DNA from: Candidatus Altarchaeota archaeon
GTDB taxonomy: Archaea; SpSt-1190
Reading direction: 5' to 3'
Length of the DNA: 9,883 nucleotides
Assembly (NCBI GenBank): GCA_030590165.1
Contig: JAUUZA010000023.1
Coordinates: 1-9,883 of the forward strand
How positions within the stretch are numbered: the stretch's first letter is position 1; every line of letters begins with the position of its first letter. The notes beneath the pieces were generated by a model. It made no database searches. It saw only the letters and a program-made list of their open reading frames with translations, and was not told where the DNA came from. A program made the translations under genes and the position numbers. This document shows, one piece after another, positions 297-9,883 of the stretch.

Positions 297-780
297 AGTT
301 GTTCCTAAGGGAGCTTTTACGGAAGTTTCGTTTATTAGTGATAAAGGATTTGGAGAAATAGTTGAAAATAAGCTTTGGTTGTTTTCTGAAGAAGCAATGT
401 TTCTTTCTGAAAAAGGCTTTCTTGATTTGGGAATGAATGAAAAAAAAGCCAGAAAATATTTTTCAAAACATAATAAGAATTTTTTACACCGTTATTTTGT
501 TTATAGAGATTTACGAATTAAAGGATATGTTGTAAAATCAGGTGCCAAATATGGGGCCGATTTTAGAGTTTATGAAAAAGGTGTGAAACCTTCACATAAA
601 GAAAAACGTGAACACTCTAAATATTTAGTTTGGGTGAAGGGTCAGGATGAAAAACTTGAAATAAAGACACTACTCGGAATAAATCGTGTTTCACATTCAG
701 TAAAAAAGAGATTAATTATTTCCATTGTCGATAAGGAATTGGATATAACTTATATTCAAAATGCCCGAGTTTTACTCTAA
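265..780 (+). CDS. endA: tRNA-splicing endonuclease EndA
   Basis: This enzyme cuts both exon-intron junctions of precursor tRNAs (and archaeal rRNA precursors) at bulge-helix-bulge folds, leaving 2',3'-cyclic phosphate ends. The 171-residue length matches the short homotetrameric archaeal type, as in Methanocaldococcus. The N-terminal half is the usual divergent alpha/beta domain. The C-terminal catalytic domain is clear: YFVYRDLRIKGYVVKSGAKYG (77-97, family signature), then FRVYEKG with the presumed catalytic Tyr103, EHSKYLV with His117, and HSVKKRL with Lys148 as the third catalytic residue. The ATG at 265 gives a normal-length N-terminus and overlaps the preceding frame by 32 bases. The stop codon overlaps the stop of the convergent small membrane gene by 4 bases. 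Archaeal identity of the window rests partly on this gene. Confidence 0.96.
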   Translation: MKKLKNSLLAEVVPKGAFTEVSFISDKGFGEIVENKLWLFSEEAMFLSEKGFLDLGMNEKKARKYFSKHNKNFLHRYFVYRDLRIKGYVVKSGAKYGADFRVYEKGVKPSHKEKREHSKYLVWVKGQDEKLEIKTLLGINRVSHSVKKRLIISIVDKELDITYIQNARVLL

Positions 781-983
781 TCTTTGTTTTCTTTATCTCC
801 GCCCATTACAACAAAACCAACTAGTCCACCTAATACTCCAAGTAATACAAGTGCTGGAGCATATTTACCCATATCAAAACTTGCATTGAGGCCCAATACA
901 TTTTCCCATCCCGGTGTTGTTACGACCAAAACTAAGAGAATCACGAGTCCAACACCCATCCAAATATTTTTACTATTAATCAT
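777..983 (-). CDS. Small two-TM membrane protein, last gene of the membrane cluster
   Basis: This is a 68-residue protein beginning MINSKNIW. It has hydrophobic segments at about 8-25 and 41-60, a short polar loop with a Trp and an Asn-Ala-Ser site (residues 33-35) between them, and a charged tail DKENKD. I chose the ATG at 983, not the upstream in-frame one at 998, because a strong purine-rich ribosome site (GGAGAGGAG) sits 4 bases before it and it overlaps the 111-aa gene by only 8 bases. Two short helices joined by a small loop resemble the size and layout of VirB2/TrbC or CedA1-like pilus subunits, but that resemblance is topological only and no signature residues are visible. Its stop overlaps that of endA on the other strand. 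Function is unknown. Confidence 0.72.
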   Translation of the reverse strand: MINSKNIWMGVGLVILLVLVVTTPGWENVLGLNASFDMGKYAPALVLLGVLGGLVGFVVMGGDKENKD

Positions 984-1311
984 TTTTCTCCTCTCCACTC
1001 ATTCCACTTCTTCCAAATGCTGATATGATTAAGGCCGCAAAAAGAAGAATTATAATTATTCCTGCGCGTCCAAGTACCCAAGCAAGGAAAGTTTCAATAT
1101 AAATATTTAGTCCAAAGAGTAGGACAAAAGCTCCTGCCAAGAATGAGGTAATTGCATAAATCCAACTGATTGCAGAATTGTCTTTATATTCCCCAAACGG
1201 TTTTGTCTTCAAAAGCGTTCCATAAACTAATAGGAACACGAGAGCAAAAGGTGCAAAGAATTGATAAAATCCCTTTTCACTTAACCATAAGATTATGTCT
1301 TCCATTGCCAT
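976..1311 (-). CDS. Three-TM membrane protein, related to the 178-aa neighbour
   Basis: This 111-residue protein has three predicted membrane helices at about 16-34, 48-69 and 84-100, with a charged C-terminus (SGEEKND). The first helix ends in LLVYGTLLKTKPFGEYKDN, a hydrophobic-aromatic segment followed by a short basic/Phe linker. The same layout appears in the 178-aa protein upstream (LILFGVLDQYKIISKDKKVN), so the two look like paralogues over three helices. The ATG at 1311 shares one base with the upstream stop (TAATG) and is preceded by GGAGGAG with an 8-base spacer, both signs of tight translational coupling. A second Met two residues in is an alternative start. There are no catalytic residues and no recognised family. 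A role as a membrane component of a multi-subunit envelope complex is inferred from context. Confidence 0.78.
   Translation of the reverse strand: MAMEDIILWLSEKGFYQFFAPFALVFLLVYGTLLKTKPFGEYKDNSAISWIYAITSFLAGAFVLLFGLNIYIETFLAWVLGRAGIIIILLFAALIISAFGRSGMSGEEKND
988..996 (-). promoter_or_regulatory. Shine-Dalgarno site deciding the start of the 68-aa gene
   Basis: On the minus strand the sequence reads GGAGAGGAG followed by four A residues and the ATG at 983. It lies within the last codons of the upstream 111-aa gene. It favours the internal ATG over the one at 998, which lies upstream of the site. Confidence 0.65.
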
Positions 1312-1847
1312 TATTCTTTCTCCTCCGTTGTTTCTCCCTTACTTATGAATGCAGATAAAATTGCGGCTAAAATACCCATTGATAGGGCAACTCCGCTGGT
1401 TTCAGCTGCCCACACACCAATTTCTCCTGGTGCATTTGCAAATGCTGCATTTACTATCATTACTGACATTATAATTAGGCCTGCATTCCAAATTTTTTCC
1501 TTACCTTTTGGAATCATTCCATTTTGGCTGAGTCCCTTGAATACAAATACGGCCAAAGTTAAAGCAAAAAGCAGGATGATTAAGGCTATACTCATCTTAG
1601 TATAAAACATTGCAAAGAACCATTCAATTTCATTTGTATATGCATAAAGCATAATGAACATTGAGATGAGTAGTGAAACGAGCGCGTTCACTTTCTTATC
1701 CTTACTTATAATTTTGTATTGGTCCAAGACTCCGAATAGTATTAAGAAAAAAATACCTACTGGAAGAATGTAATTAAATAAACCCATTTCTTGGAGCATT
1801 TCCACACTACTGTTCACATTGAATAGGGTTGTGTTGACATCAGCCAC
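1311..1847 (-). CDS. Polytopic (about five-TM) membrane protein of unknown function
   Basis: This 178-residue protein opens with a GTG codon. After a polar N-terminus (MADVNTTLFNVNSS, with Asn-X-Ser/Thr sites) come hydrophobic helices at about 24-42, 53-69, 84-104, 119-136 and 150-169, and an acidic tail GETTEEKE. Helices 1-3 line up with the 111-aa protein downstream, including the linker after the first helix; the last two helices are extra. The GTG start is supported by a TATA-like box centred about 26 nt upstream, implying a leaderless transcript that begins at or near the start codon and would cover the 178-, 111- and 68-aa genes. No transporter, pore or enzyme signature is visible. The polytopic nature invites comparison with VirB6/CedA-type proteins, but I see no sequence motif that proves it. 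Confidence 0.8.
   Translation of the reverse strand: MADVNTTLFNVNSSVEMLQEMGLFNYILPVGIFFLILFGVLDQYKIISKDKKVNALVSLLISMFIMLYAYTNEIEWFFAMFYTKMSIALIILLFALTLAVFVFKGLSQNGMIPKGKEKIWNAGLIIMSVMIVNAAFANAPGEIGVWAAETSGVALSMGILAAILSAFISKGETTEEKE
1320..1326 (-). promoter_or_regulatory. Shine-Dalgarno site for the 111-aa gene
   Basis: GGAGGAG on the minus strand lies 8 bases before the ATG at 1311, inside the end of the 178-aa gene. Together with the TAATG junction it supports re-initiation or coupling between the two genes. Confidence 0.65.
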
Positions 1848-1867
1848 AATGATTTATCTCAGTTATC

Positions 1868-1877
1868 AATAAAAAAG
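1868..1877 (-). promoter_or_regulatory. TATA-like promoter of the 178-aa/111-aa/68-aa operon
   Basis: The minus strand reads CTTTTTTATT, centred about 26 nt before the GTG at 1847, the spacing expected for an archaeal TATA box driving a leaderless mRNA. No Shine-Dalgarno site precedes that GTG, which fits. The hairpin and T-tract downstream of the previous gene separate this unit from it. Confidence 0.45.
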
Positions 1878-1937
1878 CTTTCTCTATTTTGAGGGTAATT
1901 TCAAACTTTGTTGAAAATAAGAAACCCAGAAGAGCCA

Positions 1938-1967
1938 AAAAAATAAAGAAAAAAGCCCCCAAAGGGG
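1938..1967 (-). terminator. Hairpin plus T-tract terminator after the 315-aa gene
   Basis: Ten bases past the stop of the 315-aa gene the minus strand reads CCCC-TTT-GGGG, then GC and two runs of T (six, then seven). A GC-rich hairpin followed by oligo-T is the form of an intrinsic terminator. Archaeal RNA polymerase needs mainly the T-tract, so termination here is well supported even though the stem is only 4 bp. It splits the membrane cluster into separate transcripts. Confidence 0.6.
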
Positions 1968-1976
1968 AAAATTGAA

Positions 1977-2924
1977 TTAGCTTTTTTTCTTTTTGTCAGC
2001 ATCTGCCCAGCCTTTTGCGGCGTCTTTACTTATCATACCTCTTCTGAGGTCTGCGGTAAAACCAGCCACAACTGCTTCTGCGACATCTTCAGATTTTTCA
2101 GCTATTGCTTTACTTCTTAAGACCCCACCATAGAACCACATTATAATGGCTATCAAGAGGTATATGCTAAGCATACTCATGAAGAATCCGCCAGAACCGA
2201 AGAGGCTACTTATCATACTGAGTAATCCAGTGTAAGCACCAGACCTAGCAGCAAGTAAGGCTATACCTAAACTAACTAATTTAACAGTTATTCCACGGAG
2301 CAAACCAGTACTCATTAAAAAATCTTGTAGTATAAACCACAACATCCCAAGAGGAAGCAATAGTGCAAAAAGCATTACTTGTCCTTTGGCATTATTTGTA
2401 ACTGTTAATTCTCCGTATTCATTATTTATCATGTATTCAAAAACATCAATTAAATCAATTTTATTGTTTTTATCTGAATCTGTAATATCTGAGAAAAGGA
2501 TAACTGAATTCGATCCATAAACAAATACTTTATTTTTTGAAGTAATATCTGTACATTGAATTGAGGTAACAAATAAATCATCGCTTAAATCCGAAGGAGT
2601 TTCATCCAATTCAACGGTTGTAAAACTTCCAATAGCACATATATAATCACTTGGGGTTTGTTCTTCATATGTTATGGCAGTAACATTCATTGTCACTTCA
2701 TCTTTTCTAAAACCAAGTTGATGAGTAAAGTAAGCAATACTTGCATCGTCTTTTCCTATAAACATTTGGGTTAAATCCCATCCAACTCTCATAATTCCTT
2801 CAATTAAGGCTGTGAGAGGACTCAAACTGCTTTGTACTCCGGCTGCATCTAAACCTTGAGCCATTACTGGAGCCAAGAAAGCTGCAATTAAAAAAGTAGC
2901 AAAGACTATAGCTTTGTATTTCAT
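1977..2924 (-). CDS. Secreted-domain plus multi-TM protein with an EF-hand/dockerin-like Ca2+ loop
   Basis: This 315-residue protein starts with a signal peptide (5-22, probable cleavage after VMA at 22). It is followed by an extracytoplasmic region of about 155 residues with only two cysteines, Cys96 and Cys124, likely a disulfide. Residues 149-160 (DSDKNNKIDLID) match the 12-residue calcium loop with Asp/Asn at positions 1, 3, 5, 9 and 12, followed by a VFEYMI helix as in dockerin repeats. The C-terminal half carries hydrophobic segments at about 182-203, 211-227, 231-245 and 247-270, then a basic, Ala-rich cytosolic tail (TADLRRGM...KDAAKGW). Architecture, the cysteine spacing and the DFLMSTGL motif after the first core helix match the upstream 252-aa protein. 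The ATG is supported by a TATA box 27 nt upstream. Function unknown; probably part of an envelope complex. Confidence 0.83.
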   Translation of the reverse strand: MKYKAIVFATFLIAAFLAPVMAQGLDAAGVQSSLSPLTALIEGIMRVGWDLTQMFIGKDDASIAYFTHQLGFRKDEVTMNVTAITYEEQTPSDYICAIGSFTTVELDETPSDLSDDLFVTSIQCTDITSKNKVFVYGSNSVILFSDITDSDKNNKIDLIDVFEYMINNEYGELTVTNNAKGQVMLFALLLPLGMLWFILQDFLMSTGLLRGITVKLVSLGIALLAARSGAYTGLLSMISSLFGSGGFFMSMLSIYLLIAIIMWFYGGVLRSKAIAEKSEDVAEAVVAGFTADLRRGMISKDAAKGWADADKKKKS

Positions 2925-2947
2925 ATAAACTTCTCAGTTGTAATGGG

Positions 2948-2960
2948 ATTTAAACCTTTA
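2948..2960 (-). promoter_or_regulatory. BRE/TATA promoter of the 315-aa gene (leaderless)
   Basis: The minus strand reads TAAAGGTTTAAAT, a purine-rich BRE-like stretch plus a good archaeal TATA box centred about 27 nt before the ATG at 2924. There is no Shine-Dalgarno site in the 33-base gap, so a leaderless transcript is likely. The BRE part overlaps the stop codon of the upstream gene, showing how tightly the region is packed. Confidence 0.6.
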
Positions 2961-3716
2961 CTTGGATTTTTTTTCAGCTTCTTTTAGCATTAATTCTCCG
3001 CGATCTTTGTCGGCTTTGACTGCGAGTCTCATTGCGGCAAATGTTCTTTGGCTGTTTTTTGCGGCGTGATAACCGAGTGAAATTTGACCAACAACGAAGG
3101 CACCAACTGAAAGTGCCAATATGAAGAAGATTCCATTGGCGAGAAGGCCATTTCCAGGAATTACATTTATTAAATTTAGTAGAAGTGACCACATTGTTTC
3201 TGTTCTGAATAAAAGAAGGACGAGTGAAAGGCTGACAGTTATTCCACCTCCCATAGCTAAACTGGTTTTATTCGAGAATAAACCCATTGATAAGAATACG
3301 TCTGTAAGAATTGAAGATAGTACAAGTCCAAGTAAAATATAACTTACAAAAAATAATTTGTTCAATGCGAGTTTGTCATTAATATAAATTTCTTCAGAAA
3401 TTCCATAAAGTTCTTCACCTAAAAATTCTTCATCGCCAGGAGTTATTGCAATTTTTTTTTCGGTTAGAATTGCACAACTGACATTTTCATATTCGTTTGT
3501 ATTAATTTTATCTACACTTGTTGTGAGACCTTGCATATTCCAGATATCCGCTAGGACACACATTTGTTCATCACGAACTCCACCAATTGATTTAGTAATT
3601 TCATAAACAACAGTTCCGCCACTTTGTAATAATTCACTTAATTTTGTTAGTGGTGGGGGTAGCATCATAAATGAAAATAAATTGATGAAGAGTAAAACAC
3701 CAATGATGAGGTGCAT
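2958..3716 (-). CDS. Signal-anchored ectodomain plus multi-TM protein, paralogue-like of the 315-aa gene
   Basis: From the ATG at 3716 this is a 252-residue protein. A hydrophobic N-terminus (MHLIIGVLLFINLFSFMML, residues 1-19) acts as signal or anchor. An ectodomain of about 95 residues follows with two cysteines at 53 and 81. Then come hydrophobic segments at about 120-140, 152-170, 176-188 and 192-212, and a basic, Ala-rich tail (RLAVKADKDRGELMLKEAEKK). The two cysteines are 28 residues apart, exactly as in the 315-aa protein, and TDVFLSMGL follows the first core helix where that protein has QDFLMSTGL. I infer distant paralogy. The frame extends to a TTG at 3779, adding 21 polar residues, but that start lacks a ribosome site and would bury the signal sequence. 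No family is recognised and no enzyme residues are visible. Confidence 0.8.
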   Translation of the reverse strand: MHLIIGVLLFINLFSFMMLPPPLTKLSELLQSGGTVVYEITKSIGGVRDEQMCVLADIWNMQGLTTSVDKINTNEYENVSCAILTEKKIAITPGDEEFLGEELYGISEEIYINDKLALNKLFFVSYILLGLVLSSILTDVFLSMGLFSNKTSLAMGGGITVSLSLVLLLFRTETMWSLLLNLINVIPGNGLLANGIFFILALSVGAFVVGQISLGYHAAKNSQRTFAAMRLAVKADKDRGELMLKEAEKKSK

Positions 3717-3734
3717 TTGATTATGTGGGTCCAC

Positions 3735-3745
3735 AATATTATTTT
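3735..3745 (-). promoter_or_regulatory. TATA-like box before the ATG of the 252-aa gene
   Basis: On the minus strand AAAATAATATT is centred about 24 nt before the ATG at 3716, close to the spacing of the other leaderless promoters here. It supports the ATG over the longer TTG-initiated form, whose coding region would include this box. Confidence 0.35.
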
Positions 3746-3798
3746 CTACACAAGTAGATTTGCTTTTCTGATTATTCAATTATTTACAACCAATAACC

Positions 3799-3810
3799 TG
3801 AAAAGTTTAA
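3799..3810 (+). promoter_or_regulatory. Candidate BRE/TATA box for a plus-strand RNA
   Basis: TGAAAAGTTTAA on the plus strand resembles a BRE (GAAAA) joined to a TATA box (GTTTAA). A start site about 25 nt further on would fall near 3828-3833, at the edge of the GC-rich foldable stretch. No protein gene follows on this strand, so it makes sense only if that stretch is transcribed as RNA. Confidence 0.35.
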
Positions 3811-4020
3811 TGCCAGTATGGGCCCCGACTGAGACGGTCGCTTCCCATCTTGGTTCCCATTATGTTTATTTGGGATGGTTATCGCCGCCCCTACATCCTT
3901 AACGCATTGGTTAGATTTAGTAGAGTGGTTTTTGTCTTATTCTAGACTGGCCCATTATGCCTCCCTTTACTCTCGGAGACCACTTGTTTTTAGATGCGAT
4001 TAATCGGGTTTGCCTCTAGC
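3811..4020 (+). ncRNA. Candidate structured non-coding RNA of unknown class
   Basis: The stretch from 3717 to 4052 has no credible gene: all frames are broken by stops within a few dozen codons. Yet positions 3811-4020 are about 47% G+C (99 of 210 bases counted), clearly above the neighbouring genes. Several stems can be drawn: TTAACGCAT (3899-3907) with ATGCG-A-TTAA (3994-4003, one bulged A); inside it 3923-3934 with 3974-3985, 12 pairs of which five are G-U only on the plus strand; an inner GTCT/AGAC hairpin (3934-3947, sharing one base with that helix); CCATCTTG (3845-3852) with TGGGATGG (3871-3878), again using G-U pairs. The G-U pattern and the upstream TATA box favour the plus strand. 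I found no RNase P, SRP, 5S or tRNA signatures. The exact ends are guesses. Confidence 0.4.
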
Positions 4021-4052
4021 CTTAATTTAAGACATCTTAGACATTTAAGCTC

Positions 4053-4664
4053 TTAGTCTTTCTTATAAAAGTACTTTTTCTTCTTTGCAACTATAATAAT
4101 TTCTTCTTCTGGCGGAGGTGTTGGTGGCAAAAATGTTTGAACAAAAATTGGATCTGGTCGTTTATTTTTAGATTTGATAATATATTTTATCCCAAAGAAA
4201 AGGATTGAAAAGAAGGCAAGAACTGAAAGTAAAGGAGTTAGAATTTCCATGTTTTGTCCGGCTTCAAGTCCTGGAAGAATTATTTTTTCGTATCCCCAAA
4301 CTGTATTTATGTCTCTATCACGAATTTCAATAATAATCTCAATTTCTTCAGGTTCGCGTTCATATTTTTCATTTATAGTTTTAATTTCAAAAGGTTCTAA
4401 ATCAAAGGATTGAAAAATTTTTCTTTCAGGACCTTTTCTTATGTTCAATATTAGGGGTAGTGTTTGAGGTTCATTATTTTTTACTTTTATAAAAAATAAA
4501 GCATTTGTTCCAACATAGGAAACATTCATTTCAAAAGTTATATTACAAAAAGAACAGTCAGGACTATTCATACAACTTTCACCGCCGGTGTAATTACAAA
4601 TTCCATCATCTATTTTGAATGCAAAGGCAGACAAGAGTAAAAAAAACAAAAATAATTTTTTCAA
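4053..4664 (-). CDS. Secreted Cys-motif protein with beta-rich domain, C-terminal TM and Pro-rich cytosolic tail
   Basis: This 203-residue protein has a signal peptide (1-16). A short cysteine cluster follows, DGICNYTGGESC...DCSFC (Cys 23, 31, 37, 40), resembling the DGxC-GE-C-NCPxDC motif common after signal peptides in archaeal surface proteins. A region of about 90 residues (42-131) with alternating beta-strand character looks like an Ig-like or CARDB-like ectodomain. A single membrane helix spans about 143-163, and the cytosolic tail has FLPPTPPPEEE followed by a Lys-rich end. Translation starts at TTG, overlapping the upstream TGA (TTGA), with AAAGGAG 9 bases upstream, so it is coupled to the 85-aa gene. 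The domain assignments are by eye. Function is unknown; it could be a surface anchor of the membrane complex encoded downstream. Confidence 0.78.
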   Translation of the reverse strand: MKKLFLFFLLLSAFAFKIDDGICNYTGGESCMNSPDCSFCNITFEMNVSYVGTNALFFIKVKNNEPQTLPLILNIRKGPERKIFQSFDLEPFEIKTINEKYEREPEEIEIIIEIRDRDINTVWGYEKIILPGLEAGQNMEILTPLLSVLAFFSILFFGIKYIIKSKNKRPDPIFVQTFLPPTPPPEEEIIIVAKKKKYFYKKD

Positions 4665-4918
4665 ATTTTTCGTCTCCTTTTTCTACGTTTACTAATGACT
4701 GATTCAGGAAGAATTATTACTCGTTTTTTTGGAGGTGCATAATAACCTTGTTGAGGAGGATAAGGTGATTGGCCTCCGTATGGATTATATGGTTGTTGGG
4801 TTGGGGGCATTTGAATTATTTCAGGTGGCATCTGGTCTTGTGGATTTCCCATTAATAATTTGAAGAGGAAAACACCGACTACAGCAAAGAAGGCTAATAT
4901 TAAGAGTTCAGCTGCCAC
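4661..4918 (-). CDS. Small single-TM protein with Pro/Tyr-rich basic cytosolic tail
   Basis: From the GTG at 4918 this is an 85-residue protein. A membrane helix (about 4-24) begins almost at the first residue. A low-complexity segment rich in Pro, Gln, Tyr and Gly (26-63, with repeats like PPTQQPYNPY and SPYPPQQGYY) is followed by a strongly basic end KRRKRRRKI (77-85). The tail should lie in the cytosol and could bind proteins or nucleic acid; this is inference. The open frame extends to a GTG at 4978, but that would overlap the divergent tatD gene. The GTG at 4918 has AAGGAG 6 bases upstream and places the helix at the N-terminus. The stop overlaps the next gene's TTG start. It is first in the minus-strand membrane cluster and recognised by no family I know. 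Confidence 0.7.
   Translation of the reverse strand: MAAELLILAFFAVVGVFLFKLLMGNPQDQMPPEIIQMPPTQQPYNPYGGQSPYPPQQGYYAPPKKRVIILPESVISKRRKRRRKI
4674..4680 (-). promoter_or_regulatory. Shine-Dalgarno site supporting a TTG start
   Basis: AAAGGAG on the minus strand, 9 bases before the TTG at 4664 and inside the Lys/Arg-rich end of the 85-aa gene. It is the main reason to accept TTG as the initiator, since there is no ATG near the signal peptide. Confidence 0.6.
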
Positions 4919-4924
4919 AAGATA

Positions 4925-4930
4925 CTCCTT
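4925..4930 (-). promoter_or_regulatory. Shine-Dalgarno site deciding the GTG start of the 85-aa gene
   Basis: AAGGAG on the minus strand lies 6 bases before GTG at 4918. It argues against the 20-residue longer form starting at 4978, which would run into the coding region of the divergent tatD gene. Confidence 0.6.
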
Positions 4931-4965
4931 CCAAACAGTATTAAAGTCTTGTTGAATAGCATAAT

Positions 4966-5691
4966 GTGATTGATGCACATTTGCACCTTCATGATGAGGC
5001 GTTTAAAGACGACATAAATGAAGTTCTTTTGAGGGCAAGGAAAAGTGGAGTTGTTGCCTTTGTTAATACTTCAACTAATTTTAAGGACGCTGTAGCTTGC
5101 CTAAATTTTTCGAGGATATATGATAGCGTTTATCCCTGTGTTGGTTTGGCACCATATTCCGACTTGACTGAAATTGATTCTATGCTTCAGTTGATTGAAG
5201 ATGAGCCTGACATTGTCGCAGTTGGGGAAATTGGGTTGGATTGGCCTTATGAAAAAAAACCAGCACAAATTGAAATTTTCAAGAAACAAATTGAGATTGC
5301 GAAGGAACTTGATTTACCTGTTGTTGTTCATTCTCGCTCTGCTGGAAAATATTGTATTGAAATTTTAAAGGAGATGAAAGTAGAAAAAGTTTTACTTCAT
5401 TCCTTTGATGGAGGAATAAAACACGCAAGAGTTGCATTTGACCTTGGGTATCACTTTTCAATACCAGTGACTGTGATTAAGAGTCCACAAAAACAACAGT
5501 TGGCAAAGGAGATTCCGGAGAAATTGCTATTGCTTGAAACCGATAGTCCAGTATTAAATCCAAATGGTGGAAGAAATGAACCAGCAAATTTAGTGATAAG
5601 TCGAGACTTCATTGCTGAATTGAAAGGACTTGAGCCAAAAACAATTGAAAGTATTACTGAAGTTAATACCCGGAAATTCTTTAAAATTTAA
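4966..5691 (+). CDS. tatD: TatD-family metal-dependent hydrolase (putative DNase)
   Basis: This 241-residue protein spans the whole TatD family length. TatD proteins are TIM-barrel amidohydrolase-fold enzymes using two divalent metals; characterised members have DNase or 3'-5' exonuclease activity. The expected ligands are all visible: the N-terminal HxH (His5, His7 in IDAHLHLH), Glu88 in VGEIGLDW, His122 in VVVHSR, His145 in LLHSFDG and Asp193 in LLETDSP, a family signature. The family's usual C-terminal N-x-R-x-F appears as NTRKFF. The start is GTG at 4966, which puts the first metal motif at the usual position; no ATG is available. It diverges from the 85-aa membrane gene with 47 bases between starts and is followed 14 bases later by a Nudix gene, probably co-transcribed. 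The substrate in this organism is not shown by the sequence. Confidence 0.92.
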   Translation: MIDAHLHLHDEAFKDDINEVLLRARKSGVVAFVNTSTNFKDAVACLNFSRIYDSVYPCVGLAPYSDLTEIDSMLQLIEDEPDIVAVGEIGLDWPYEKKPAQIEIFKKQIEIAKELDLPVVVHSRSAGKYCIEILKEMKVEKVLLHSFDGGIKHARVAFDLGYHFSIPVTVIKSPQKQQLAKEIPEKLLLLETDSPVLNPNGGRNEPANLVISRDFIAELKGLEPKTIESITEVNTRKFFKI

Positions 5692-7326: not shown

Positions 7327-9153
7327 GTGTGCGGGATTGCAGGTTGGTTTGGCAAAGATGCAAAAAAACAAGTCATTTCCGCATTAGAGAAGTTAGCTCA
7401 CCGTGGGAGAGATGCATCTGGTGTCGCAGTTATTGAAGGCGGTGCTATTGGTCATAATTTACACGCCACTATTGGACATGTCGTTCAACCCTTCATTGAA
7501 GGTGATGCTTGGATGGTTGGAAATTGTGAGATTTATAATTGGGAAGAACTTTCAAAAAAGTACAAAGTTCAGGCGAGGAATGATGCTGAACTTGTTTTCA
7601 AATTACTATTGAAAAAAGGAGTAAAAATTATTGAAGAGTTTCATGGTCCGTATGCAATTGCGTTTCATAAAGAGAAAACTTATTTAATGAGAGACCCGAT
7701 TGGAGTTTTTCCCTTATTTTATTCACACCTTGCTTTTGCTAGTGAACGCAAGGCCTTTGATGGACTTCGTGAACTTCATCCTCGACATATGTTGGTTGAT
7801 GGGGAATTAATTTATGGTGAAGGTTTTACAAGAAAAGAAGCAACACAAAAAGATATTGATAAGGCTTTGAGAAAGTCGGTAAAGTTGAGAATTCATAATG
7901 ATTTAACTCTCTTCCTTTCAGGAATTGATTCTTCTCTTCTTGCTTATTATTTGAAGGATGAAGGGGCAAATTTTAATTGTGTATCTGTTGGTTTGAAGGG
8001 GAGTTCTGATATGAAGCGTGCTCAGAAAGTTGCTTCCCTTTTAAAATTGAAATTGAAAAAAGTTGAGGTGACAAAACAAAATGCACTTAGTGCTGTTGGA
8101 ATTGTTTCAAAATTAATTGAGAGTTCTGACCCAGTAAAAGTTGAAGTTGGAATGGTGACCTATTTTTCTGCACAAAATGCAGGGAAAGTTTCTTTGTCGG
8201 GATTGGGGGCTGATGAAATTTTTGGAGGATATTCTCGTATGCATCGTTCTCCTGAGAAAGAAACTATTTGGGCTTTGATGAATGTTTATGAACGTTCGGC
8301 ATATCGAGATAATGTTCTTGGACTTGCTGGTGGGACTGAAATGCGTTTACCTTATTTGGATAAAGAAGTTGTCAGTTTATCTCTTGGACTTGAACCTGAA
8401 CTTAAAGTAGGTAAGAAAATTCTTAGAAATATTGCTCAAAATTATTTGGGTGATATTGCACTCCTTCCAAAAAAAGCAGCCCAGTATGGTTCTGGTTTTT
8501 CAAAAATAATTCCGACTTTTAAAACCACATATCTTTCGCAGTTCATTCCAAAGAATCGTAAGTTGGTTGCTTTAGTTAGTGGTGGAAAGGATTCTTGGTA
8601 TGCTATGCATACTATGCAAAATTTGAATTATGAAATTTCGTGTGCTATTGTTATGATGCCTGGTGAGGGTTCATGGATGTTTCATGTTCCTGGAGTTGAG
8701 AAAGTTCCTGAACTTTTATCTCAACATGGAATTGCTGCTATTGCCCAAAAAACTGAAGGGAAAAAAGAAGAAGAACTTGATGATTTACAAATTGCATTGA
8801 GGCTTGCAATTGAAAAATATGGAGTTGAAGGAATTGTTAGCGGTGCGATTTCTTCAGAATACCAACGAGATAGAATAGAAAAAATTGGAAATTGGCTTGG
8901 ACTTTCATGTCATTCTCCCTTATGGGGAACTGAGCCAGAATCATATCTTCGTCGTTTGGTAAAGGAAGGTTTTGTCTTTAAAATTGCTAGTGTTGCGGCT
9001 CACGGATTGAAAGAGAGTTGGGTCGGAAAAACAATAGGAAAAAAAGAAGTCGAAGAATTGATTAAACTTTCAAAGAAGTTTAGATTTAATGCAGCGGGAG
9101 AAGGCGGGGAATACGAAACTATGATAGTTAAGGCACCGTGTGTTAATATTTAA
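7327..9153 (+). CDS. dph6: Fusion: class II glutamine amidotransferase + asparagine-synthetase-like + diphthine-ammonia ligase (Dph6)
   Basis: This 608-residue protein has three parts. Residues 2-165 are an Ntn glutaminase: Cys2 (exposed after removal of the GTG-encoded Met), HRGRD 25-29, NCEIYN 66-71 and Asp86 match the AsnB glutamine pocket. Residues 175-405 resemble the AsnB synthetase domain (SGIDSS 198-203, SGLGADEIFGGY 291-302, MRLPYLD 339-345). Residues 410-605 are a Dph6/ATP_bind_4 domain: LVSGGKDS 416-423, SGAISSEYQRDRIE 505-518, LSCHSPLWG 526-534, GEGGEYET 591-598. Dph6 amidates diphthine on EF2 with ATP and ammonium, the last step of diphthamide synthesis. In the middle domain the ATP loop is SG-IDSS, one residue short of SGGxDSS, and the Glu of SGEGxDE is Leu293. 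I infer that glutamine ammonia may serve Dph6, with the AsnB part degenerate or repurposed; the alternative is a bifunctional Asn synthetase. Confidence 0.93.
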   Translation: MCGIAGWFGKDAKKQVISALEKLAHRGRDASGVAVIEGGAIGHNLHATIGHVVQPFIEGDAWMVGNCEIYNWEELSKKYKVQARNDAELVFKLLLKKGVKIIEEFHGPYAIAFHKEKTYLMRDPIGVFPLFYSHLAFASERKAFDGLRELHPRHMLVDGELIYGEGFTRKEATQKDIDKALRKSVKLRIHNDLTLFLSGIDSSLLAYYLKDEGANFNCVSVGLKGSSDMKRAQKVASLLKLKLKKVEVTKQNALSAVGIVSKLIESSDPVKVEVGMVTYFSAQNAGKVSLSGLGADEIFGGYSRMHRSPEKETIWALMNVYERSAYRDNVLGLAGGTEMRLPYLDKEVVSLSLGLEPELKVGKKILRNIAQNYLGDIALLPKKAAQYGSGFSKIIPTFKTTYLSQFIPKNRKLVALVSGGKDSWYAMHTMQNLNYEISCAIVMMPGEGSWMFHVPGVEKVPELLSQHGIAAIAQKTEGKKEEELDDLQIALRLAIEKYGVEGIVSGAISSEYQRDRIEKIGNWLGLSCHSPLWGTEPESYLRRLVKEGFVFKIASVAAHGLKESWVGKTIGKKEVEELIKLSKKFRFNAAGEGGEYETMIVKAPCVNI

Positions 9154-9176: not shown

Positions 9177-9491
9177 ATGGTAAAAACTAAGAAAAAAGTT
9201 CAATATGTTATTTATAAATTTCCTTCAAAAATAGACAAAAATCACGGTTATTTTTCAGTTTATGATTTGTTTTCTGAACAAAGATATTTTTGGCGAGTTC
9301 CTATTGAAAGAATTGGGGATGCTTACGAAGAAAAACAAAAAGAAGTTTTGCATTCAGAGATAGACAAACTTTGTCTTGGAATGAATATTATTGGTGGAAT
9401 ACCTGATTGTGTGGAATGTACTATTTTTAATAGGGTTAAATTAAGACAAAAAGAAAAAGAATTAATTGAGGGCTATTCCTTACTTTCTTAA
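9177..9491 (+). CDS. Small soluble protein of unknown function
   Basis: This is a 104-residue protein that I do not recognise. It has a basic N-terminus (MVKTKKKVQYVIYKFPSK), an aromatic-rich middle (GYFSVYDLFSEQRYFWRVP, about 24-42), and three cysteines at 66, 78 and 81, the last two as CVEC. Charged helical ends suggest a small soluble alpha/beta domain. There is no signal peptide or membrane helix. One CxxC plus a lone Cys is too little to claim a zinc site within one chain. A TATA box 26 nt upstream supports the ATG. The TAA is followed at once by the ATG of the agmatinase-like gene, so the two are co-transcribed and perhaps functionally linked. It is not aIF5A: the expected KxGKHGxAK hypusine loop is absent. 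Confidence 0.72.
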   Translation: MVKTKKKVQYVIYKFPSKIDKNHGYFSVYDLFSEQRYFWRVPIERIGDAYEEKQKEVLHSEIDKLCLGMNIIGGIPDCVECTIFNRVKLRQKEKELIEGYSLLS

Positions 9492-9883
9492 ATGTTCTTT
9501 TCTACTTTTTTAGTGGATAAAATTAAATATAGTTTGTTTGGGATTCCTTGGGAAGGTGAGTCTAAAACAGCCGTTCTTGGAGTAATTTATGATGCCACAA
9601 GCGAATTAAAAAAAGGTTCAGCGAGTTTTCCAGCCGCAATTAGATTGGCAAGTTATGGAATTGAGTGGGACGAGAATTTTGATGCTATTGATTGTGCTGA
9701 TATTTTACCACAAACAAATCCTGAAAAAATGTTTGAGGGTGTAAAAAATTATTTAGCAGATTTATGGCAAGAGGGGTTTAGGCATTTTTTAGTTCTTGGT
9801 GGAAATCATTCAATTACAATTCCAGTTGTTCAATTCTTATCTGAAAATAAACTAAAGCGTTATGTTCAATTTGATGCACATGC
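9492..9883 (+). CDS. speB: Agmatinase/arginase-family ureohydrolase (3' truncated by window)
   Basis: Only the first 130 or so residues are in the window. The ureohydrolase pattern is clear: GVIYDATSELKKGSASFPAAIR (30-51, matching the family's GxPxDxGxxxxPGxxxGPxxIR stretch), LGGNHSIT (102-109, first manganese His at 106) and FDAH (127-130), which begins the DAHxD metal motif and is cut off by the window end. The usual GGDHS is GGNHS here, an Asp to Asn change. Agmatinases release urea from agmatine to make putrescine. In archaea an agmatinase-like enzyme has also been tied to deoxyhypusine formation on aIF5A through agmatine, which would suit a neighbour of a diphthamide gene; this is inference. 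The ATG follows directly on the TAA of the 104-aa gene. Arginase, guanidinobutyrase or formimidoylglutamase remain possible. Confidence 0.88.
   Translation, partial: MFFSTFLVDKIKYSLFGIPWEGESKTAVLGVIYDATSELKKGSASFPAAIRLASYGIEWDENFDAIDCADILPQTNPEKMFEGVKNYLADLWQEGFRHFLVLGGNHSITIPVVQFLSENKLKRYVQFDAH

Follow-up and report, generated by a model that had tools for sequence, protein, structure and literature searches.

Glutaminase, AsnB-like and Dph6 domains in a single archaeal protein, and their uneven decay among relatives

The window analysed here, a stretch of 9,883 nucleotides comprising one whole contig of a Candidatus Altarchaeota genome, carries a gene in which a class II glutaminase, an asparagine synthetase B (AsnB)-like PP-loop domain and a Dph6 domain are joined in one reading frame. 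The gene very probably encodes the organism's diphthine-ammonia ligase (Dph6), and the explanation that best accommodates all of the evidence, which we favour by a modest degree, is that this ligase is fed by glutamine-derived ammonia passing a dead synthetase domain. The architecture and the idea of glutamine as ammonia source were already published in 2012; what is new is the pattern of decay among the parts of the fusion, as a variation on the published fusion type.

By ORF calling, positions 7327-9153 of the forward strand form a single open frame of 608 aa with a GTG start and an in-frame TAA, on a 9,883 bp contig of a 724 kb source genome (64 contigs, 87.6% complete). The features of the gene and its downstream neighbour are:

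7327..9153, + strand: three-domain fusion gene, class II glutaminase / AsnB-like PP-loop domain / Dph6 (608 aa, GTG start, stop included)
7327..7761, + strand: N-terminal class II (Ntn) glutamine amidotransferase domain, residues 1-145 (Pfam GATase_7 and GATase_6; alignment with 1ct9 and human ASNS)
7855..8526, + strand: AsnB-like PP-loop ATPase domain, residues 177-400 (Pfam Asn_synthase; alignment)
8527..8556, + strand: linker joining the AsnB-like domain to Dph6, residues 401-410 (inside the stretch where the model is least confident, about residues 381-410)
8557..9150, + strand: Dph6 diphthine-ammonia ligase domain, residues 411-608 (PF01902 and TIGR03679 above cut-offs; structure match PH1257)
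9492..9883, + strand: agmatinase-family gene, truncated by the contig end (PF00491; conserved downstream neighbour, outside the proposed mechanism)

A preliminary description of the window had claimed a continuous frame through glutaminase, AsnB-like and Dph6 modules, and this is borne out: Cys2, NCEIYN, Asp86, SGGKDS and GEGGEYET were all found, and Pfam and NCBIfam searches place all three domains in the one 608-aa frame (GATase_7 at residues 53-144, E 5.7e-16; Asn_synthase at residues 177-312, E 2e-29, with a second stretch further on; Diphthami_syn_2 at residues 412-605, E 6.1e-45). An AlphaFold2 model built from 19 sequences (the source protein and related loci) reached a mean pLDDT of 86 and a pTM of 0.76 and was weakest near the linker (residues 381-410); with this pTM and weak linker, the model does not fix where Dph6 sits with respect to the glutaminase. 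The top structural match for the N-terminal two thirds was AsnB (1ct9; Z 38.7 over 420 residues, rmsd 3.7, the alignment extending beyond residue 400), while the last 200 residues matched PH1257 and PF0828 best (PH1257 2d13: Z 25.0, 187 residues, rmsd 1.8).

Proteins of this kind were reported in Methanohalophilus mahii, Methanosalsum zhilinae and Nanosalinarum by de Crecy-Lagard et al. (2012, PMC3541065), and the source protein matches them in its three domains, in domain order and in having a single frame. It was proposed then that glutamine hydrolysis supplies ammonia to DUF71 (Dph6) and to the AsnB part, and the reviewer L. Aravind asked which of the PP-loop domains takes the ammonia and what the role of the AsnB-like one might be (PMC3541065). 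We found no later answer to this question in the literature searched, a body of work outside which most subscription journals lie. Stand-alone Dph6 functions with ammonium, and the yeast enzyme has ATP and ammonium as substrates (PMC5354562). Yeast Dph6 (YLR143W) resembles the source protein in joining an accessory module to the Dph6 core, and that module has been suggested as an ammonia supplier (PMC3585130), although it consists of two C-terminal YjgF/RidA domains rather than a glutaminase.

On sequence grounds, the C-terminal domain belongs to the archaeal type of Dph6 and has the ATP loop (S418-GGKDS; SGGKDS at 8578-8595) and the EGGxxE motif (GEGGEYET at 9097-9120, corresponding to EGG(D/E)xE of Dph6), and it scores 214.5 bits with the NCBIfam model Dph6_archaeal (TIGR03679) compared to an equivalog cut-off of 197.3. 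Fold and motifs are shared with the archaeal stand-alone Dph6 proteins (PF0828, PH1257; TIGR03679), which have no glutaminase and carry about 30 extra C-terminal residues. The residues proposed as EF2 contacts in PF0828 (PMC3541065) are all retained, as read from the alignment, save that Tyr45 is replaced by Trp450. The tail is short also by comparison with the 2012 fusions, ending about 10 residues past GEGGEYET compared to about 40 in the Methanosarcinaceae fusions; the shortening (8-22 residues) is common to the family, and is therefore real. The domain had been called a full Dph6, of which it falls slightly short, the C-terminal tail being reduced. The fusion is the only PF01902 protein and the only Dph6 found in the source genome at 87.6% completeness, no separate complete dph6 being detected elsewhere in it, and both Dph2 and Dph5 are encoded. 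No EF2 turned up in this incomplete assembly; the LHEDxIHRG loop of EF2, which bears the diphthamide histidine, is retained in all eight relatives with a full-length EF2.

When E. coli AsnB (1ct9) and human ASNS are aligned to it, the N-terminal domain shows the complete catalytic set of class II amidotransferases (Cys nucleophile, Asn, Asp), as Cys2 (7330-7332), N67 (in N67-C-E-I-Y-N, with N67-C68-E69 at 7525-7533) and D86 (7582-7584). Judged from its other residues, this glutaminase is not canonical: the same alignment places Leu45 (7459-7461) at the Arg48/49 position, with GHNLHAT instead of GHxRLS, and Cys68 stands where NGEIYN has Gly. These features are not peculiar to the source protein, every retained fusion glutaminase tabulated having Leu at the position of the glutamine-contacting Arg of ASNS, with GHxLH for GHxR and either NCEIYN or NLEIYN for NGEIYN. 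Arg-48 of human ASNS is part of the glutamine-recognition network (PMC6748925), and the amide donor of the fusion should therefore not be assumed; since some stand-alone archaeal relatives also carry Leu at this position, the case for glutamine use is weakened, not settled.

We sampled 57 loci in which the parts are fused or adjacent, one of which (L226) is cut by the contig start. The Cys, Asn and Asp motifs are all present in 42 and all missing from about 13, a single locus (L225) being mixed, and this all-or-none retention is as expected if the retained glutaminases work. On the tree the presence or absence of the glutaminase needs two changes, most simply one loss in the relative G005 and one in Methanosarcinaceae. 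In Methanohalophilus, Methanococcoides and G005 the proteins, whether fused or adjacent, have none of these residues, and the fusion thus does not require a glutaminase. The absence extends to the M. mahii fusion (L230, 214-2337, minus strand), one of the 2012 examples, which is missing all three motifs and has a GATase match below the Pfam cut-off; this protein is probably unable to hydrolyse glutamine. Glutamine feeding is dispensable in these other lineages, and is not general to the fusion.

The PP-loop of the middle domain is degenerate in the source protein (S198-G-I-D-S202 at 7918-7932), reading LS-GIDSS and not LSGGxDS through the deletion of one Gly, and the loop is one codon short in the source gene and in two relatives, G003 and G004 (TCA-GGA-ATT-GAT, compared to TCA-GGT-GGA-ATT-GAT in G001). 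Such a deletion would be expected to abolish ATP use by this domain. The source protein thus keeps its glutaminase residues beside a damaged PP-loop, whereas the M. mahii protein has no glutaminase Cys, Asn or Asp and an intact AsnB-like PP-loop. The two fusion types amount to a natural separation of glutaminase from middle ATPase, and their contrast offers a new route to testing the source of ammonia. Because the glutaminase has been kept in the source protein and two relatives despite the damaged PP-loop, Dph6 is left as the consumer of ammonia in the chain. Identity between the source protein and its homologue in G004 is 66% in the middle domain, 67% in the glutaminase and 64% in Dph6, and these similar rates of divergence argue that the middle domain is still constrained; only per-domain identities were used here, as dN/dS was mostly saturated.

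We propose that the glutaminase domain would release ammonia from glutamine, that the middle domain would no longer consume it but serve as a scaffold or conduit, and that Dph6 would adenylate the diphthine carboxylate on EF2 and then use the glutamine-derived ammonia to form diphthamide; in sister lineages where the glutaminase has decayed, Dph6 would take free ammonium. For the source clade we regard such feeding of Dph6 by glutamine as about an even prospect. Weighing against it are also the use of ammonium by stand-alone Dph6, the loose placement of Dph6 in the model and the failure to find EF2 in the incomplete source genome. A more specific version, in which the dead asparagine-synthetase domain acts as the conduit and glutamine ammonia has been redirected in this clade from a lost active site to a fused EF2-acting PP-loop ligase, is put forward tentatively and may well be wrong. 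The protein had been described beforehand as a glutamine-fed diphthamide synthetase. In favour of that description, it is a genuine Dph6 joined to glutaminase and AsnB-like modules, the only Dph6 found in a genome that also has Dph2 and Dph5, and glutamine feeding is the simplest reading; as a general explanation it fails, sisters with the same fusion (M. mahii among them) having lost all glutaminase residues, and it is further tempered by a retained glutaminase that is without the Arg that contacts glutamine.

The principal alternative, which we consider unlikely, is that the middle domain is an active ATP-dependent ligase for some other substrate, fed by the glutaminase, with Dph6 fused to it for co-expression or a shared substrate and using free ammonium. 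In favour of it, SGGxDS is intact in 52 of the 57 proteins sampled, fused or adjacent, among them those whose glutaminase is dead; members of the AsnB-like family also stand by themselves across archaea, in many cases with no glutaminase, and the Lys of KKAAQ is conserved (K383 of KKAAQYGSGF, at 8473-8475, corresponding to AsnB K449). However, an active ligase is difficult to reconcile with the source protein and two relatives, which keep the glutaminase with a PP-loop one residue short, and with the absence of the catalytic Glu throughout. Also against it, the PP-loop is kept in glutaminase-dead sisters, and the two are thus not coupled. In the source protein Leu293 (8203-8205) occupies the position of Glu348 in E. 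coli AsnB and Glu364 in human ASNS, and the tabulated archaeal homologues have Gln (mostly in stand-alone proteins), Ser, Ala, Leu, Phe or Asn there, never Glu.

It is less probable again that the first two domains survive only as a structural relict, a platform which positions Dph6 or EF2 without hydrolysing glutamine, Dph6 using ammonium. The persistence of the fusion through at least two glutaminase losses, and the Arg to Leu and Gly to Cys replacements in the retained pockets, would fit such a platform, but the joint retention of Cys, Asn and Asp across so many loci, in two distant archaeal groups, is hard to explain without catalysis.

A bifunctional asparagine synthetase plus Dph6 is highly improbable. 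The fusion is the sole Asn_synthase protein in the 87.6%-complete source genome and NCBIfam AsnB models do match it, but with scores below their cut-offs. Compared with asparagine synthetase B (1ct9; human ASNS), the same arrangement of glutaminase and PP-loop synthetase is present, with Leu for the catalytic Glu, a PP-loop minus one Gly, Leu for Arg in the glutaminase, and the C-terminal part replaced by Dph6. Human ASNS carrying E364A or E364Q is inactive even with ammonium chloride (PMC6748925). Thr336 of ASNS is also not matched in a gapless alignment, but the two templates give conflicting alignments around Thr336/Arg339, and this loss is therefore weak evidence only. We consider asparagine synthesis by the middle domain very unlikely, and a comparison of the two fusion types would caution against annotating it as an asparagine synthetase.

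The middle domain is most closely related to AsnB-like proteins of archaea that stand alone and carry the motifs GQGADE and KKAAQYGS; these are unfused to Dph6, mostly have Gln at the Glu position and often lack a glutaminase domain. They belong to a widespread archaeal PP-loop family (L067-L116) that is likely misannotated as asparagine synthetase. Neighbours of the stand-alone genes vary by lineage, including an amidase/GatB pair (in Methanomicrobiales), CCA-adding enzyme, pyruvate kinase, TBP and ATP synthase, and indicate no function for the middle domain. In two loci where an AsnB-like gene adjoins dph6 (L209 and L220, grouping with Methanococcoides), the PP-loop reads SAGIDS rather than SGGxDS.

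The fusion occurs in seven of the 10 genomes of the source class. Five (G001-G004 and G008) encode full-length homologues of 43-66% identity with the same three-domain frame free of stops, and the frame in G005 is missing its first 50 residues; the two parts are separate genes in G007 and G009, and neither was found in G006 (72% complete). In the family of Methanococcoides vulcani, one frame spans both parts in 50 of 111 genomes and the two genes overlap or lie within about 15 bases in 13 more (by our own count); in Methanococcoides itself the AsnB-like and dph6 genes overlap, unfused, at the point of the linker. This survey of archaeal genomes, which the preliminary description had suggested, thus recovered the same domain order well beyond the source genome. 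One short contig of an incomplete genome might raise the suspicion of a misassembly, or of two genes joined by chance, but this is refuted by uninterrupted frames in independent genomes of two groups, and neighbouring genes are conserved as well. The Dph6 tree places G008 with the fusions of Methanosarcinaceae (98) and gives the source family a long branch of its own, and we therefore do not claim a single origin for the fusion. No match to the fusion was found in the viral contigs searched.

Elsewhere in the window, a run of small membrane-protein genes lies on the minus strand (777-4978), with no Pfam match for the ORFs at 1977-2924 and 2958-3779. A 104-residue ORF (9177-9491) without Pfam or NCBIfam match separates the fusion from the agmatinase gene. 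TatD-type and agmatinase-type ORFs, recognised by eye, recur next to the fusion gene in relatives, the agmatinase-type gene lying downstream of it at 9492-9883 in the source and, by eye, at 3983-4789 in L004, 156-998 in L006 and 3237-4121 in L007. In L006 an ORF resembling pyruvoyl arginine decarboxylase (again by eye) stands between the fusion and the agmatinase-type gene, and polyamine genes thus adjoin a gene for EF2 modification.
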